Shown here one piece after another: positions 6,356 to 48,687 of a stretch of DNA of 50,234 bases. The stretch comes from a virus: the IMG/VR virus record IMGVR_UViG_3300044733_003641, positions 1-50,234 of that record; one strand, 5' to 3'. The notes under the pieces are model-generated. The model saw only the letters and a list, made by a program, of their open reading frames with translations. It ran no database searches and was not told where the DNA came from. Position 1 is the first letter of the stretch. Every line of letters starts with the position of its first letter. The translations under genes were made by a program, and so were the position numbers.

Positions 6356-7471
6356 TTAAACTGTTGTTATTGGTATTGGAAATGCTCTAAACTTTAGTTG
6401 TGTATTTAGATCTGTGGCAATTTTAGCCTCTCTTTCCATTATAAATTCAGGTCTTAATCTTTCTAATCTTTTTGTTAATTCTTCCAAAAGTACCGTTTTT
6501 TCATCTTTTGCTTCGGTAGAGAGTGAGGTGTAGTCCATTTGTAGTTCACTATCGGGTGTTTTTAAGTTTCCGCTAAATTTACCCCTCACTCTAGCTAAAG
6601 TTTCTTTTGCATAAGCTGTCAACCATCTTCTAACCCATTGTTGTGCAGGATCATTCAAATCTTGCCAAGAAAGTGCATCTAATGGAATATCTGATGGTAA
6701 TTTAACAATGTCTGGATTATCTTTCAGACACTGATCTCTATCAGCATCGTTTGTATCATAATACCAATACCACACTTTACCTCTCATCAACTCCGAATTT
6801 CCAAAGTCGAATTTACCACCTGGTGTATTGTATAACATTACGGCTTTTTTACCACCAGGTAATGCTGTGACTCTGTATTGTACGTCAGGTTGTATGATCC
6901 TTCGTTTGAGGTTAATGTCTTGAAGTCTAGATAAAACATCGTAGGATGAAAAAAAGAAATACCCACCACTTCCCCATCCAGGTTGAGCAAATCCACCAGG
7001 CCCACCAATACCAGGGCCCCCAAGTGATCCAAAAGACCATGGATCGAAAAATGCACTATTTTGTTCAGAGGGTGAAAACCAAAGTAATTCATTGAGTTCT
7101 CTTCCTGCTGGTATTTCATAGATCTGTTGATTTTGTTGTAACTGAAAATAATCCTTTTTAAGTACCCAAGGCCCTGAGTTTTGAAGTCCAACAATTTTTG
7201 AGTAGGCATAGGTATATTGAGTTTCCCAATCCAATGATCTTCTCACTAGTGCATTTGCGACGGATTGAGTGTCTAAATTCAGACCATATAATGAAGTCCA
7301 TTGTGACTCTATTAACCAATCTTGAACATATTGGGTATAATCTCCAATGGAAAGTTCCATTAGTGAATCCATCATTTCATCTGTCAATTCTACGGAACGT
7401 AACGGGGCGCCCAAGAGATTATAAATTCTCTTGTACATTTTACTTCTTTCTGGTTCTGCAATAATATTCAT
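6356..7471 (-). CDS. Putative neck protein (gp13-like)
   Basis: A 371-residue protein if started at the ATG at 7471, preferred because a TATTTATT box lies four bases upstream and this removes an overlap with SOD; an in-frame ATG at 7498 would add nine residues. The N-terminus (KRIYNLLGAP, then ELTDEMMDSLMELSIGDY) matches the way T4-like neck proteins of the gp13 type begin, with a short helix, a LGxP turn and an acidic helix. A conspicuous Gly/Pro-rich loop lies in the middle (about residues 145-175), and the C-terminus is helical and charged. In T4 order, gene 13 precedes 14 and 15, and candidates for 14 and 15 follow at 11118 and 13627, though on the opposite strand. The name is an inference from pattern and order; a general virion structural protein is the alternative. 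Confidence 0.45.
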   Translation of the reverse strand: MNIIAEPERSKMYKRIYNLLGAPLRSVELTDEMMDSLMELSIGDYTQYVQDWLIESQWTSLYGLNLDTQSVANALVRRSLDWETQYTYAYSKIVGLQNSGPWVLKKDYFQLQQNQQIYEIPAGRELNELLWFSPSEQNSAFFDPWSFGSLGGPGIGGPGGFAQPGWGSGGYFFFSSYDVLSRLQDINLKRRIIQPDVQYRVTALPGGKKAVMLYNTPGGKFDFGNSELMRGKVWYWYYDTNDADRDQCLKDNPDIVKLPSDIPLDALSWQDLNDPAQQWVRRWLTAYAKETLARVRGKFSGNLKTPDSELQMDYTSLSTEAKDEKTVLLEELTKRLERLRPEFIMEREAKIATDLNTQLKFRAFPIPITTV

Positions 7472-7475
7472 AACC

Positions 7476-7483
7476 AATAAATA
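7476..7483 (-). promoter_or_regulatory. TATTTATT box on the minus strand before gp13-like gene
   Basis: Read on the minus strand, TATTTATT ends four bases before the ATG at 7471. The box has the same orientation relative to its gene as on the plus strand. The short distance is hard to reconcile with a plain -10 box, so its role is open. Confidence 0.35.
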
Positions 7484-7484
7484 T

Positions 7485-8174
7485 TCACAATCTATCATTT
7501 ACGTAATCCCAGTCCACAACCCTCCAAAAGTTTTTGATATATTCGTCTCTTCTATTTTGATATTTGAGATAGTATGCATGTTCCCATACGTCCAAACCAA
7601 GAAGTGGTTTTCCTCCATCTTTAACAAAACTCATCATCGGATTATCTTGATTTTGTGTTGTTACAATTTTTAATTTACCATTTTCTTTTAGTATCAACCA
7701 TACCCAACCAGATCCAAAAACACTTTTAGCCGCCTCATCAAATTTTTTTTTGAATTCTTTGACACTTCCAAAATTCGAGTTTATTCTCGAATCAAGTTTC
7801 ATAGGAATTCTTGGTGGGTTAGGTGTCATCATATTCCAAAACAACGAATGATTATAGGCCCCACCAGCGTTGTCTCGTATAGGTTTTTCAGTTTCTTTGA
7901 CCGAACTTACAATTTCTTCCAAAGACATATTTTCATATCTCTTTCCTTTGGTCGCTAAGTTCAATTTATCAACATAACCTTTATAGTGTTTTGTATAATG
8001 AACATTCATTGTTGTTGGATCGATGAAAGCTTTGAGAGATGTAAAAGAATAAGGTAATGGTTCAAACACTACATTACCATGTTTTATCTTGGATTTTTTT
8101 TGTTCTTCTATTAATCTTCTTCTTTCCTCAATTTTCTGTTCTATTAACTCAATTTTATTTTCCAAATACTTCAT
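7485..8174 (-). CDS. Superoxide dismutase, Fe/Mn family, Mn-type signature
   Basis: The enzyme converts superoxide to oxygen and hydrogen peroxide. The four metal ligands are visible: H59 (VHYTKHY), H109 (AYNHSLFW), D195 and H199 (DVWEHAYY). The pairing of NAGGAYNH with a Gln in TTQNQDNP (instead of Gln in the first motif) is the Mn-type arrangement, so Mn or cambialistic use is likely. I chose the ATG at 8174; a TTG at 8183 is in frame but weaker. Compared with the usual length of about 200 residues there is an extra N-terminal stretch of about 35 residues, highly charged and coiled-coil-like (KIELIEQKIEERRRLIEEQ), which could anchor it to another protein. It lies between a helicase and a neck-like gene on the minus strand. 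No signal peptide is seen. Confidence 0.92.
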   Translation of the reverse strand: MKYLENKIELIEQKIEERRRLIEEQKKSKIKHGNVVFEPLPYSFTSLKAFIDPTTMNVHYTKHYKGYVDKLNLATKGKRYENMSLEEIVSSVKETEKPIRDNAGGAYNHSLFWNMMTPNPPRIPMKLDSRINSNFGSVKEFKKKFDEAAKSVFGSGWVWLILKENGKLKIVTTQNQDNPMMSFVKDGGKPLLGLDVWEHAYYLKYQNRRDEYIKNFWRVVDWDYVNDRL

Positions 8175-43794: not shown

Positions 43795-44757
43795 ATGGAA
43801 AAGATTTTACAAGAAAATCCGAATCGTTTTGTCCTATTCCCAATCCAACATGAAGATTTGTGGAAACTCTACAAACAAGCTCAATCTTGTTTTTGGACAG
43901 CTGAAGAAATTGATCTACAACAAGACCTAACTGATTGGGAAAAATTAAATGAGGGTGAAAAATATTTTGTCAAGAATGTATTGGCGTTTTTTGCGGCCTC
44001 GGACGGAATCGTAAATGAAAACCTTGCTGAAAACTTCGTAAAAGAAGTTCAGTATACTGAAGCAAAGTTTTTTTACGGGTTTCAAATCATGATGGAAAAC
44101 GTTCACTCAGAAACTTACTCTCTGTTGATTGACACCTATATCAAAGATAAAGAAGAACAAAATATATTGTTCAATGCAATAGAAACTATTCCTGCCGTTA
44201 AGAAGAAAGCGGACTGGGCACTTAAATGGATTGGATCGTCCTCCTTTACGGAAAGGTTAATTGCCTTTGCGGCAGTAGAGGGTATATTCTTTTCTGGTTC
44301 ATTTTGTTCAATCTTTTGGCTTAAAAGACGTGGATTAATGCCTGGGTTGAGTTTTTCCAATGAATTAATATCTCGGGATGAGGGACTACATACCAATTTT
44401 GCGGTTCATTTGTATCGTCATCACATCCAAGACCAACTATCAAAAGAGAGAGTTTTAGAAATTCTAACCTCAGCACTTACGATTGAAAAAGAGTTTATTA
44501 CCGAATCACTTCCAGTAGATTTAATCGGAATGAACTCTAAACTAATGTGTCAGTACTTGGAGTATGTTACTGATAGACTGTTAGTTGATTTGGGTATTGG
44601 TAAAGTTTATAATTCAGAAAACCCATTTGATTTTATGCAAAATATTGCATTAGAAAACAAAACAAACTTTTTTGAAAAACGAGTATCTGATTATTCTAAA
44701 CGAGGGGTGGGGGATGTAATTGAAACCAAAGAAATAAATTTTGAAGAAGATTTTTAA
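43795..44757 (+). CDS. nrdB: Ribonucleotide reductase class Ia small subunit (NrdB)
   Basis: The 320-residue subunit holds the diiron centre and the tyrosyl radical that starts catalysis in NrdA. Ligands visible: D70 in [11 protein letters not shown]101 and H104 with radical Tyr Y108 in [10 protein letters not shown], then the pair in [13 protein letters not shown]. The long match to the eukaryotic R2 style ([18 protein letters not shown]) and the C-terminal docking tail ending NFEEDF are typical of the eukaryote/Bacteroidota-type class Ia. It is 12 bases upstream of NrdA part 1. Confidence 0.95.
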
Positions 44758-44769
44758 AAATAAAAAGTA

Positions 44770-45960
44770 ATGGAAGTTGTAAAAAGAGACGGAACAAGAG
44801 AATATGTGAAATTTGAAAAAATTTCATCAAGAATCAAAAAGCAAACATATGGTTTGAATGAAGATTATGTTGATTACTTTGAAGTATCAAAAAAAGTAAT
44901 TGCTGGTTTATATGACGGAGTGACAACGGAGGAACTAGATCGATTGGCTGCGGAAACATCAGCATCACTAGTAACTAATCATCCTGATTATTCTACCTTG
45001 GCGGCACGTATTGCGATTACGTCGTTGTATAAAAGAGTTGATAAAAGGTTCACGGCTACAGCAGATAAGTTATATCATTACATCAATCCTAAAACAGGTG
45101 AGAAAGCGGGTATGATTTCAGATGAAGTGTACAAAGTAATTGTTCAACACGGAAAAGAATTGGATGCGATGGTTGTCCATGATCGTGATTTTAATTTTGA
45201 TTACTTTGGTTTCAAAACCTTAGAAAAAAGTTATCTACTTAAAATGTTTGGTGAGGTTGCAGAAACCCCCCAACATTTATACATGAGGGTTGCTGTAGGT
45301 ATTTGGCTTGATAATTTGGAAATGGTACAAAAAACCTATGATATGTTATCACAAGGGTTATTTACCCATGCAACACCTACGTTATTTAATTCTGGAACCA
45401 AACGACCACAATTGAGTTCTTGTTTCTTGTTAGATATTGATGATGATTCAATTCCTGGAATTTACAAGACATTATCAGATTGTGCGGTGATATCTCAAAA
45501 TGCTGGAGGTATAGGTGTAAATATTCACAAAATAAGAGCTAAAGGTGCTTATATTAAAGGAACCAATGGATCTTCAAATGGTATTATTCCTATGTTGAAG
45601 GTGTTTAATGAAACTGCCCGGTATGTTGATCAGTGTTTTGTTCCAGATACAAAAGTTAAAACAAATCTTGGTTATAAAAAAATTTCAGAGATTACTGTTG
45701 GTGATATGGTTTTGAATTCAAACGGTACTTACAATCCAGTATCAAATGTCAAGAAGTTCGAAAAGAAAGAAAGAGATTTTATAACCATCAATTCTTCTAT
45801 TGGTGAGAATACTGTAACACGAGGGCACCTATATCTTACAATAAAAAATGGTAAGAAAGATGAAAACTTAACATATAAAATTCAAAACAAGTTGGTAAAA
45901 GCGGAATGGGTTGAAGCTGAAAATTTGACAACTGAAGACATTTTGATTAAAATTAAATAA
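44770..45960 (+). CDS. nrdA: NrdA N-terminal half fused to split-intein N-part
   Basis: Residues 1-288 are the N-terminal half of the class Ia reductase large subunit: an ATP-cone-like N-terminus (about 1-90), FNSGTKRPQLSSCFLLD with the first catalytic Cys (C218), GGIGVNIHKIRAKGAYIKG and NETARYVDQ. At residue 289 the intein N-part begins (CFVPDTKVKT) and continues to the stop at 396. The gene is thus broken in the conserved VDQ-GG loop. The second half is at 46897. The total extein would be about 818 residues, typical for NrdA. Together with NrdB it makes deoxynucleotides from ribonucleoside diphosphates. Both halves are needed for catalysis, either rejoined by splicing or assembled as pieces. 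Confidence 0.93.
   Translation: MEVVKRDGTREYVKFEKISSRIKKQTYGLNEDYVDYFEVSKKVIAGLYDGVTTEELDRLAAETSASLVTNHPDYSTLAARIAITSLYKRVDKRFTATADKLYHYINPKTGEKAGMISDEVYKVIVQHGKELDAMVVHDRDFNFDYFGFKTLEKSYLLKMFGEVAETPQHLYMRVAVGIWLDNLEMVQKTYDMLSQGLFTHATPTLFNSGTKRPQLSSCFLLDIDDDSIPGIYKTLSDCAVISQNAGGIGVNIHKIRAKGAYIKGTNGSSNGIIPMLKVFNETARYVDQCFVPDTKVKTNLGYKKISEITVGDMVLNSNGTYNPVSNVKKFEKKERDFITINSSIGENTVTRGHLYLTIKNGKKDENLTYKIQNKLVKAEWVEAENLTTEDILIKIK
45634..45957 (+). mobile_element. Split intein, N-terminal part
   Basis: The 108-residue segment starts with C1 (CFVPDTKV), shows block A (KKISEITVGDMVLNSNG) and block B (TVTRGH, the TxxH motif), and ends after DILIKIK. No endonuclease domain is present. The partner is at 46897. 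Confidence 0.9.
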
Positions 45961-45998: not shown

Positions 45999-46889
45999 AT
46001 GAAAAATTTTTATTCAAATGATAAATCGGGAAAGAAAAAAAAATATCATTATATGATAACATATCATCCTCAAATAACAAAAGATATTTTGGATTGGGCA
46101 AAAATTCATGGTTTGTATGGTCTTTCTTTTGATGAATTAAGTTATTTAAAGTTTCATAATTTAGAATCAGTACCATCAGACCAAAATGGATTTAAACCTT
46201 TTCATGGTTGGTCTAAAGGTTATAACAAGAATGGAAAAATAAAAAAACTTGAAGAAAAATTCATTGAAAATGATTTATTAAAGTTTAAAGTTTCACTTAC
46301 TACTGAGCAATTGGAAGGTCAAAAAAAATGTGGAATGATATCTCAAATAATACAAAACAATTATATTTTGTCGGAAAAAATTGATCAATTATATGATAAT
46401 ACAATCCCAAGGAGACAAAAAGTTGATATGTTTTTAAATGACATAGTTGAAATTCCAAAATGTGAAATATGTAAGAAGACATGTCTCTCTAGATTGACAC
46501 ATAGGGAATTCAGAAAAACGTGTTCGGAAAAATGTAGACGGGAGTTAGAGGCTAGTTTTAAATCATATGTGTTAGATATAGGGGGTGAAAAAATTAAAGT
46601 TCAGGGATATGAAAGGTATGTATTACCAACTTTAATTGAACAATATGGTAGATCTGACTTAAAAATAGGATTCGAAAATAATCCTATAGAATATACTATG
46701 GATGGAAAATTAAAAAATTATTATCCTGATATATTCGTTAAAAGTGAGAACAAAATCATTGAAGTAAAATCTACTAGAACATTTGAACTTGACAGAAAAA
46801 AAAATTTATGTAAAAGAGATGGTTGTATATCAAAGGGATATAATTTTAACTTTTACATTTGGCACAAAGGAAAAATAAAAATAATTTAA
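45999..46889 (+). CDS. Free-standing PD-(D/E)XK-type homing nuclease between NrdA halves
   Basis: The 296-residue protein lies between the two halves of NrdA. It has a Lys-rich N-terminal domain (about 1-85), a possible zinc-binding part with Cys at 155, 158, 162, 175 and 179, and a C-terminal nuclease domain with PD at 243-244 (YYPDIFV) and ExK at 255-257 (IIEVKS), the PD-(D/E)XK pattern. The ATG has an AGGAG upstream. A nuclease between split intein halves is known as a fractured-gene arrangement, where the nuclease makes the intein insertion mobile. The target is inferred to be the intein-free nrdA. It is not fused to either intein half. Confidence 0.8.
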
Positions 46890-46896
46890 AAAAACT

Positions 46897-47094
46897 ATGA
46901 AAAATACAAATATTCAATTAGACCATCAAATTTTAGATGGTGAAATCGTAAGTGAAATTGTTAATCTAAATTTAGATGAGATTGAGTTAGTAACTATAGA
47001 GTCTATTCAGGAAACAAAAATAGATACTGAAGTATATGATTTGGAAATCGAGCAACTCCCAAATTATACTACAGATATAAGTTTAGTTCACAAT
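46897..47094 (+). mobile_element. Split intein, C-terminal part
   Basis: The 66-residue segment shows block F ([10 protein letters not shown]) and block G ending SLVHN. The terminal Asn is at 66. The next codon is GGC (Gly), not Cys, Ser or Thr. Restored extein reads VDQ-GGGRRKG, as in intact NrdA, so the boundary is firm. Confidence 0.9.
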
Positions 47095-48687
47095 GGCGGG
47101 GGTAGGAGAAAAGGTTCTATTGCGGTATATCTTGAACCTTGGCATGCTGATGTATTTGACTTTTTAGACCTTAGAAAAAATCATGGTAAGGAAGAAATGA
47201 GAGCTCGTGATTTGTTTTTAGCTATGTGGACACCAAACCTATTTATGGAAAGAGTTGAGAGTGATGGACTATGGTCTTTATTTTCACCTGAGGAAGTACC
47301 TGGTTTGATTGATGCATATGATACACCTGATTCGAAAGCTTTCACTGAGCTTTATACAAAATACGAACGGGAGGGTAGAGCCATCAAAACGATCAAAGCT
47401 CGTGAACTTTGGGAAAAGATTTTGGATTCACAAATCGAGACTGGTACTCCATATATGTTGTACAAAGATGCTGTCAATTACAAAACTAACCAAAAAAATT
47501 TGGGTACAATCAAATCGTCAAATTTGTGCTGCGAAATATGCCAATATACCGACAAAAACGAGATCGCAGTTTGTAATTTAGCGTCAGTAGCACTTCCTAA
47601 ATTTGTGGACATTCCATCAGGAAAAGTACGTGAGAAAAACAAAAAGTTGCGGACTTACAACTTCCAAAAGTTATATGAAGTTGTTTATCAAATGACAGTT
47701 AACTTGAATCAAGTAATCGATATAAATTATTATCCTACAATAGAAACAAGAACTTCAAATTTCAAACATAGACCTATAGGTTTAGGAGTGCAGGGTTTAG
47801 CGGATACCTTTGCAATGTTATCTCTACCTTTTGAAAGTCCTGAGGCTCAAAAATTGAATAGTGAAATATTTGAAACAATTTATTTTGCGGCGTTGTCAGC
47901 ATCAAAAGATTTGGCAATGAAACATGGTCCATATGAAACATACGAAGGATCACCAGCATCATTTGGAAAGTTACAGTTTGATTTGTGGGATGTCAGTATG
48001 GAGAATCTTTCTGGTTTATGGGATTGGAGTACGTTAAAGTCTCAAATTGAAAAACATGGACTTAGAAATTCCTTACTTGTAGCTCCGATGCCTACTGCGA
48101 GTACCGCACAAATTCTTGGTAATAACGAATGTTTTGAACCTTTTACAACTAACTTATACAAAAGAAATGTATTAAGTGGTGAATTTGTAATCATCAATAA
48201 ACATTTGGTTGAGGATTTGGTTAACCTTGGACTTTGGAACGATAGAATTCGATTGAAACTATTTGACGGAAATGGGTCAGTCCAAAAGATAGATGAAATA
48301 CCATCTGAGATCAGAGAAGTTTACAAAACTGTTTGGGAAATGAAGGGTAAAACTATTTTGGATATGGCTCGAGACAGAGCAATTTTTATTGACCAATCAC
48401 AATCTCTAAACATTTTTATGCAAGATGTAACACAATCTAAGTTATCTTCGGCACATATGTACGGATGGAAATTAGGATTGAAAACAGGAATGTATTATTT
48501 GAGAACTAAGGCTAAAGCTGCGGCGATCAAAGGATTGGGTGTTGATATGTCAGCGTTGAATACTCCAGAAACACAAGAAAGTTTCAAACCCAAACCACTC
48601 GAAAACAATAATTTGACATTGACAGAAGATATGATAAACAAAGTTTGTTCTTTAGATGATCCAAATTGTTTGACATGTAGTTCATAG
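46897..48687 (+). CDS. nrdA: Split-intein C-part fused to NrdA C-terminal half
   Basis: Residues 1-66 are the intein C-part (see separate entry). From residue 67 the reductase resumes with [24 protein letters not shown], broken here at GSIAVY for brevity. Active-site motifs are kept: SSNLCCEI (N and C439-like), [11 protein letters not shown] (C462-like), and the C-terminal CLTC pair used for re-reduction. There is a 6-base gap to the nuclease gene upstream. Together with the first half it gives a complete enzyme. Its start is an ATG after an A-rich leader. The first extein residue is Gly, which is odd for an intein junction. Confidence 0.93.

Follow-up and report, generated by a model that had tools for sequence, protein, structure and literature searches.

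How can an intein operate when the residue that follows its terminal Asn is a glycine? Inteins are described as requiring Cys, Ser or Thr at this +1 position. The question is raised by nrdA, a ribonucleotide reductase (RNR) gene on the IMG/VR virus record IMGVR_UViG_3300044733_003641, of which positions 1 to 50,234 were analysed (50,234 bases, hereafter the window). Its two gene halves each carry half of an intein, and Gly is the first residue of the C-extein. We conclude that a naturally split intein, class 1-like in other respects, sits in the allosteric loop 2 of NrdA, that it belongs to a family with Gly at +1, and that it most likely joins its exteins by direct aminolysis, a reading we regard as probable.

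By reading-frame translation the window nrdA consists of two genes downstream of nrdB (44770-45960 and 46897-48687), with the following layout.

43795-44757, plus strand: nrdB, class I ribonucleotide reductase small subunit (Pfam PF00268, E 5e-111)
44770-45633, plus strand: NrdA N-extein, ATP cone and start of the barrel, ending NETARYVDQ (PF03477, PF00317, PF02867 positions 1-72)
45634-45957, plus strand: intein N part, 108 amino acids, starting CFVPDT; C1 at 45634-45636, stop codon at 45958-45960
45817-45828, plus strand: block B TRGH (TxxH) within the intein N part; Thr at 45817, His at 45826
45999-46889, plus strand: free-standing open reading frame (ORF) of 296 amino acids separating the two intein parts; matches DUF7487 (PF24308, E 1e-18) and has a PD...EVK motif; probably a homing nuclease
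46897-47094, plus strand: intein C part, 66 amino acids, block F VYDLEIE, ending VHN; His at 47089-47091, Asn at 47092-47094
47095-47097, plus strand: Gly+1, codon GGC, directly after the intein HN by frame reading
47095-48687, plus strand: NrdA C-extein, GGGRRKG..., from loop 2 to the C-terminal CLTCSS (PF02867 positions 69-523, E 4e-175)

A sequence-only reading of this DNA had pointed out the Gly after HN in an intein with C1, TxxH, block F and terminal HN. Frame reading confirmed the Gly, and all four intein features are present. Because a +1 nucleophile is absent, no branched ester is possible and the usual branch chemistry is ruled out at this junction. The locus has the layout of a split intein in a fractured gene, with two genes of one extein half and one intein half each and a nuclease-like, putatively nuclease-encoding ORF between them. 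Ribonuc_red_lgC scored above the Pfam cut-off on both NrdA halves. The intein parts fell under the cut-offs, the N part just so against PF01079 Hint (27.4 bits, E 3e-6, cut-off 29.7) and the C part against PF14890 Intein_splicing (18.3 bits, E 0.002, cut-off 35.8). L121, a relative with the intein in cis, cleared Intein_splicing with 45.3 bits and NCBIfam intein_Nterm with 25.0 (cut-off 24.5); a PDB sequence search with L121 gave just two weak intein matches (E 0.07-0.08). No RNA intron was found in the window at Rfam gathering thresholds.

Two findings would have weakened the earlier claim, namely a sequencing error turning Ser or Cys into Gly and relatives with a nucleophile at +1. The error is very unlikely because near relatives (L003-L007, L010-L013) share the junction with distant ones. 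Among the 80 nearest loci, which include many near-copies, the insertion site was uninterrupted in 58, occupied by an intein in 21 and without the region in one, and in all 58 uninterrupted loci Gly follows Gln (VDQ/GGG). The intein is thus inserted exactly and Gly+1 is the native host residue; a spliced product would read as the ordinary ...YVDQGGG(R/K)RKG.... The Gly is presumably tolerated because the host residue cannot change.

Relatives were sampled from both junctions. With C-side patterns (HN/GG...), 17 and 26 stretches were recovered from viruses and 19 from genomes, the latter comprising nine nrdA loci, seven chance matches outside nrdA and three with no junction listed; the N junction begins with CF in 19/19 listed loci found in this way. 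Because these patterns demand Gly, a second sampling was made from the N side alone with the pattern A-(R/K)-(Y-V-D / W-I-N)-Q/C-F, which yielded 48 loci in two scans (30 and 18). All 42 loci that could be read to the other junction have HN/Gly; L203, L211, L212, L214 and L219 end before any junction, and L217 is a chance match. In 37 of these 42 the junction was located via the downstream NrdA sequence with Gly not demanded; translations showed it in L204 and L209, and a script requiring HN/GG set it in L207, L208 and L210, whose sequence there is that of L204. Clustered at 90% identity across the final 38 intein residues, the 42 loci form 16 clusters; from a larger input of 65 loci (48 from the N side, nine from metagenome-assembled genomes (MAGs) and eight others) the 59 with a junction form 31. 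Relatives with a +1 nucleophile were thus sought and not found, and on the two counts of uninterrupted and readable interrupted loci we reject both a sequencing error and a hidden junction nucleophile. The Gly+1 intein belongs to a family and is no accident of the window phage.

The family alignments (31 N rows and 35 C rows, near-copies included) conserve the block-B His in 31/31 and Thr in 29/31, the block-F Asp in 34/35 and a Tyr near the C-end in 35/35; C1 and HN were search terms of the alignment script and are not counted as conserved here. Between L023 and L027 the ratio of nonsynonymous to synonymous substitution rates (dN/dS) was 0.07 for the intein N half and 0.13 for the C half, with 0.01 and 0.05 for the exteins; both intein halves are under purifying selection between near relatives. 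As controls we took PF14890 inteins from 395 genomes of the phylum of G006, a bacterial genome that carries the Gly+1 NrdA intein as well as another intein ending VVHN/SIEQDA (L247). Among the 30 loci returned, the 27 that reach the profile C-end all have Cys (13), Ser (10) or Thr (4) at +1 and none has Gly, in a set of best-scoring, often interrelated Pfam matches that leans canonical; three further matches stop at profile position 96 and were left uncounted. Near the C-end, 31 family representatives read Tyr-x followed by Thr (22), Leu (7), Ile (1) or Val (1) and never Ala, the Tyr having been demanded by the script in family rows, whereas the controls have Phe/Tyr-x-Ala at the matching position in 27/27. 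In a tree, 27 Gly+1 rows were split from 20 control inteins by a branch with 100/100 support; it left out four of the 31 representatives (no N part) and near-copies among the controls, and with controls from a single PF14890 sample and a short domain it covers no claim of one origin among all inteins.

An AlphaFold2 model was built for the L004 intein, whose halves share one frame separated by TAA, read across its stop with 19 sequences. Its mean predicted local distance difference test (pLDDT) score was 71 and its predicted template modelling score 0.50, with core blocks at 75-95 and linker and exteins mostly below 50. VIA-align matched it to 6riz, a gp41-1 variant (Z 11.4, root-mean-square deviation (rmsd) 6.0, 122 residues aligned), 6qaz, gp41-1 (Z 10.9, rmsd 1.8, 65 aligned), and two bacterial intein-like domains (BILs), 6y75 BIL2 (Z 9.3, rmsd 1.9, 76 aligned) and 2lwy from C. 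thermocellum (Z 7.2, rmsd 5.8, 121 aligned). The core is thus predicted to adopt the HINT fold, grouped with inteins and BILs by Foldseek and VIA-align; the fold is silent on mechanism.

By PDB sequence match, the cut corresponds to the bond that joins Gln288 to Gly289 in yeast Rnr1. Loop 2 comprises residues 285-295, and recognition of the substrate depends crucially on Gln288 and Arg293, according to passages of PMC3483043; passages of PMC3267527 describe it as linking the effector and substrate sites, its main-chain atoms recognising the base in the dTTP/GDP complexes. Since the site lies in loop 2, this role would explain both the unchanging Gly and the cost of an open chain there.

The intein also occurs in frame in nrdA of nine Bacteroidota MAGs, from Saprospiraceae (L113, L121, L128), Bacteroidia (L115), Chitinophagales (L116, L120), Cytophagales (L118, L123) and Hymenobacter (L122). 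The contigs reach 424 kb (L113), and by eye the flanks of L113 and L121 look chromosomal, with an rnpA-like ORF and nrdB near L121. In seven of the nine (G002-G008) the interrupted NrdA is the sole PF02867 gene found, i.e. the only class I/II RNR found, and class III NrdD (PF13597) was found in 0/9. The N-extein of G008 contains a TGA/frame break.

The element takes several forms. A nuclease-like ORF lies between the split halves in the window, L014, L027, L028, L135, L137 and L002. Split forms without this ORF have a stop-to-start gap of 9 nucleotides (nt) in L129, 2 nt in L131 (the same contig as L023, whose intein halves are thus likewise 2 nt apart and not parted by a nuclease ORF), 32 nt in L205 and 41 nt in L204. 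In-frame cis inteins occur in phage nrdA, L071 and L093 among them; the cis form of L071 and L121 carries a LAGLIDADG domain, and L209 is a cis mini-intein. The ORFs between the halves differ, being DUF7487 in the window and ORFs with a YEF.GD..HGNP motif in L014 and L002, for which no Pfam match above cut-off was found. Among the 60 records listed of the 4153 in a phage tblastn search with the N half, LR756504.1 (L002, an uncultured 636-kb megaphage) was seen with the intein. Three cultured phages read from this listing, whose nrdA match extends beyond the N-extein (Stills, LIMEstone1 and pSal-SNUABM-02), lack an intein at the Gln/Gly site. Two viral pattern scans looked for nrdA broken here with no intein present, their scope being an N part closed by TAA, a C part opened by ATG and the linkers that the patterns allow; they gave 1 and 9 hits, none of them nrdA by translation.

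How might such an intein join its exteins? From C1 and TxxH, the associated intein halves would form a Cys1 thioester with Gln-1. No branch would follow; the last Asn of HN would cyclise and free the C-extein with an N-terminal Gly-Gly-Gly. The Gly amine would then attack the Cys1 thioester (aminolysis) directly and close loop 2, with the ends kept together by the intein and the NrdA fold. Ligation may be helped by the unhindered Gly amine and by ends that both the fold of NrdA and the pairing of the intein halves keep close. This route resembles that of sortase, which uses oligo-glycine acceptors. The same sequence of thioester, Asn cyclisation and attack by the freed amine has been proposed, in passages of PMC4031507, for type A BILs that splice without a +1 nucleophile, with cleavage products dominant. 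The sequence-only reading had left two options, another mechanism that joins the halves or an intein that trims itself off while the NrdA pieces work non-covalently as in phage Aeh1. The former is favoured and the latter less so, given the cis inteins in bacterial nrdA, the cut inside loop 2 and the different, intein-free split of Aeh1.

Several points weigh against ligation. All chemical steps and the ligated NrdA product are inferred from sequence, and at either junction the AlphaFold2 model has low confidence (block means of 61 and 54), which makes its active-site geometry tentative. Because BILs mainly cleave, as passages of PMC7664689 also state, a high ligation yield would be no default expectation. 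Between the window and the more distant L028, dN/dS rises to 0.22 and 0.53 for the intein halves, and several pairs show saturation at synonymous sites. Two of the nine MAGs have further RNRs beyond the interrupted gene (two in G001, one in G009), and because MAGs are incomplete, the lack of a further RNR in the others carries little weight. The intein is also rare in cells: in 295 genomes of the class of G006, 183 match the query and, among the matches listed, G006 alone does so over the intein, the others covering at most query residues 361-390 on the C-extein side.

These points leave room for an intein that only trims itself off both ends, so that NrdA would act as two non-covalent chains with loop 2 open at Gln/Gly. 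The conserved residues permit N- and C-cleavage, BILs mostly cleave (PMC4031507 and PMC7664689, in the passages cited above), and passages of PMC3267527 describe the NrdA of Aeh1 as functional in two non-covalent pieces, which also counts against ligation here. We nevertheless consider this unlikely. The cut sits in the loop that links effector and substrate sites, whereas the break in Aeh1 lies at another place and spares loop 2; cis inteins lie in the apparently sole class I/II RNR of most of the MAGs; and the two scans, for TAA-ending N parts and ATG-starting C parts, revealed no intein-less split at the site.

Rather improbable is a branch nucleophile supplied by the intein itself, in a class 3-like manner or by a new acyl carrier, which would pass the N-extein to the Gly amine. 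The Tyr-x-Thr/Leu/Ile/Val end of the family, set against Phe/Tyr-x-Ala in the controls, might hint at such a residue, but the Thr is not universal and the 27 controls are canonical-leaning best Pfam matches. The family alignments moreover contain no second Cys column reaching 80%, and the block-F position that we take for the class 3 Cys is Asp in 34/35. Least credible of all is a decaying intein with poor splicing and cleavage in a phage that depends on the host RNR. Split genes can be tolerated in phages and the window intein parts score under the Pfam cut-offs; against decay stand the intact C1, TxxH and HN, the low dN/dS between near relatives, the spread over phages and bacteria and the intact NrdA frames on both sides.

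The element resembles class 1 inteins (gp41-1, 6qaz, 6riz) in C1, TxxH, block-F Asp, C-terminal HN and HINT fold; it departs from them in having Gly instead of Cys, Ser or Thr at +1, so that no branched ester could form. Class 2 inteins start with Ala, and this class is rejected on the Cys in the window and at all 19 listed N junctions; a class 3 intein (no position-1 nucleophile, block-F Cys, WCT) is rejected on the presence of C1 and the Asp at the presumed class 3 position in block F. Type A BILs share the HINT domain, C1, HN and the lack of a +1 nucleophile. They mostly cleave and lie in variable regions of non-conserved proteins, described as hypervariable in passages of PMC7765530, whereas the present insertion is exact and in a conserved NrdA loop. 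Unlike BILs, the NrdA Gly+1 intein carries or adjoins nuclease-like ORFs. Dassa et al. reportedly described, in 2009, fractured genes in which split inteins go with free-standing homing endonucleases, and the locus is alike in its two gene halves with intein halves and a nuclease-like ORF between them. We know of no Gly+1 case among them. In Aeh1, nrdA is broken into NrdA-A and NrdA-B by the homing nuclease gene mobE, much as here by a nuclease-like ORF. That split lies at PF02867 221/222, after ...GNLCIEIALPTVP, whereas the window N half ends at position 72; NrdA-A retains SQGGVRGG (loop 2 uncut); mobE comes next, and an intein is absent. An Aeh1-like break is rejected for the window, as the split position differs. 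Searches of the open-access literature, whose coverage leaves out key older intein papers, found no description of a Gly+1 intein, and a claim of novelty would be weak.

Other insertions were seen in the same gene. In L204, nrdA contains a group I intron (7517-7796, minus strand; RF00028, 71.5 bits, E 5.8e-18) immediately behind the GGG codons, with an apparent splice GGG^KRKG by eye. The same sequence region occurs in L207, L208 and L210, the RF00028 scan covering L204 among these four. Because this intron directly follows the GGG codons of the Gly+1 junction, the two elements target codons of loop 2 that lie next to each other. In L002 the frame after ...GLVHN/GGGK is broken for about 300 bp (~7350-7690), which looks like an intron of the L204 type; in an Rfam scan of L002, L004 and L014 nothing reached the gathering threshold. 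A second NrdA intein site, SNL/C with Cys at +1, showed 10 in-frame junctions among 26 starts in the examined loci. Inteins at this site were listed for L004, L007, L012, L013, L021, L022, L030, L041, L129 and L145, and further for L073, L076, L078 and LIMEstone1 (L268); in L096 and L208 the intein start alone was seen. L004 and L012 carry the SNL/C and the Gly+1 intein in the same gene. We take the Cys of SNLC to be the catalytic thiyl Cys of NrdA.

A more far-reaching proposal would place the RNR loop-2 inteins of phages and Bacteroidota in a monophyletic "class 4", marked by the Y-x-T/L motif where others have F-x-A and capable of efficient sortase-like ligation, through attack of an N-terminal Gly-Gly on the Cys1 thioester, on which DNA synthesis of some bacteria depends; we see the chances for and against it as about even. 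Nucleophile-free ligation is so far known from BIL domains. If our reading is true, a Gly+1 clade in a key enzyme would mean that such ligation can sustain an essential protein, and the range of possible intein insertion sites would be wider. Ligation at Gly-Gly junctions would be traceless, with no leftover Cys, Ser or Thr, and the competition between BIL-type aminolysis and hydrolysis would become directly testable.
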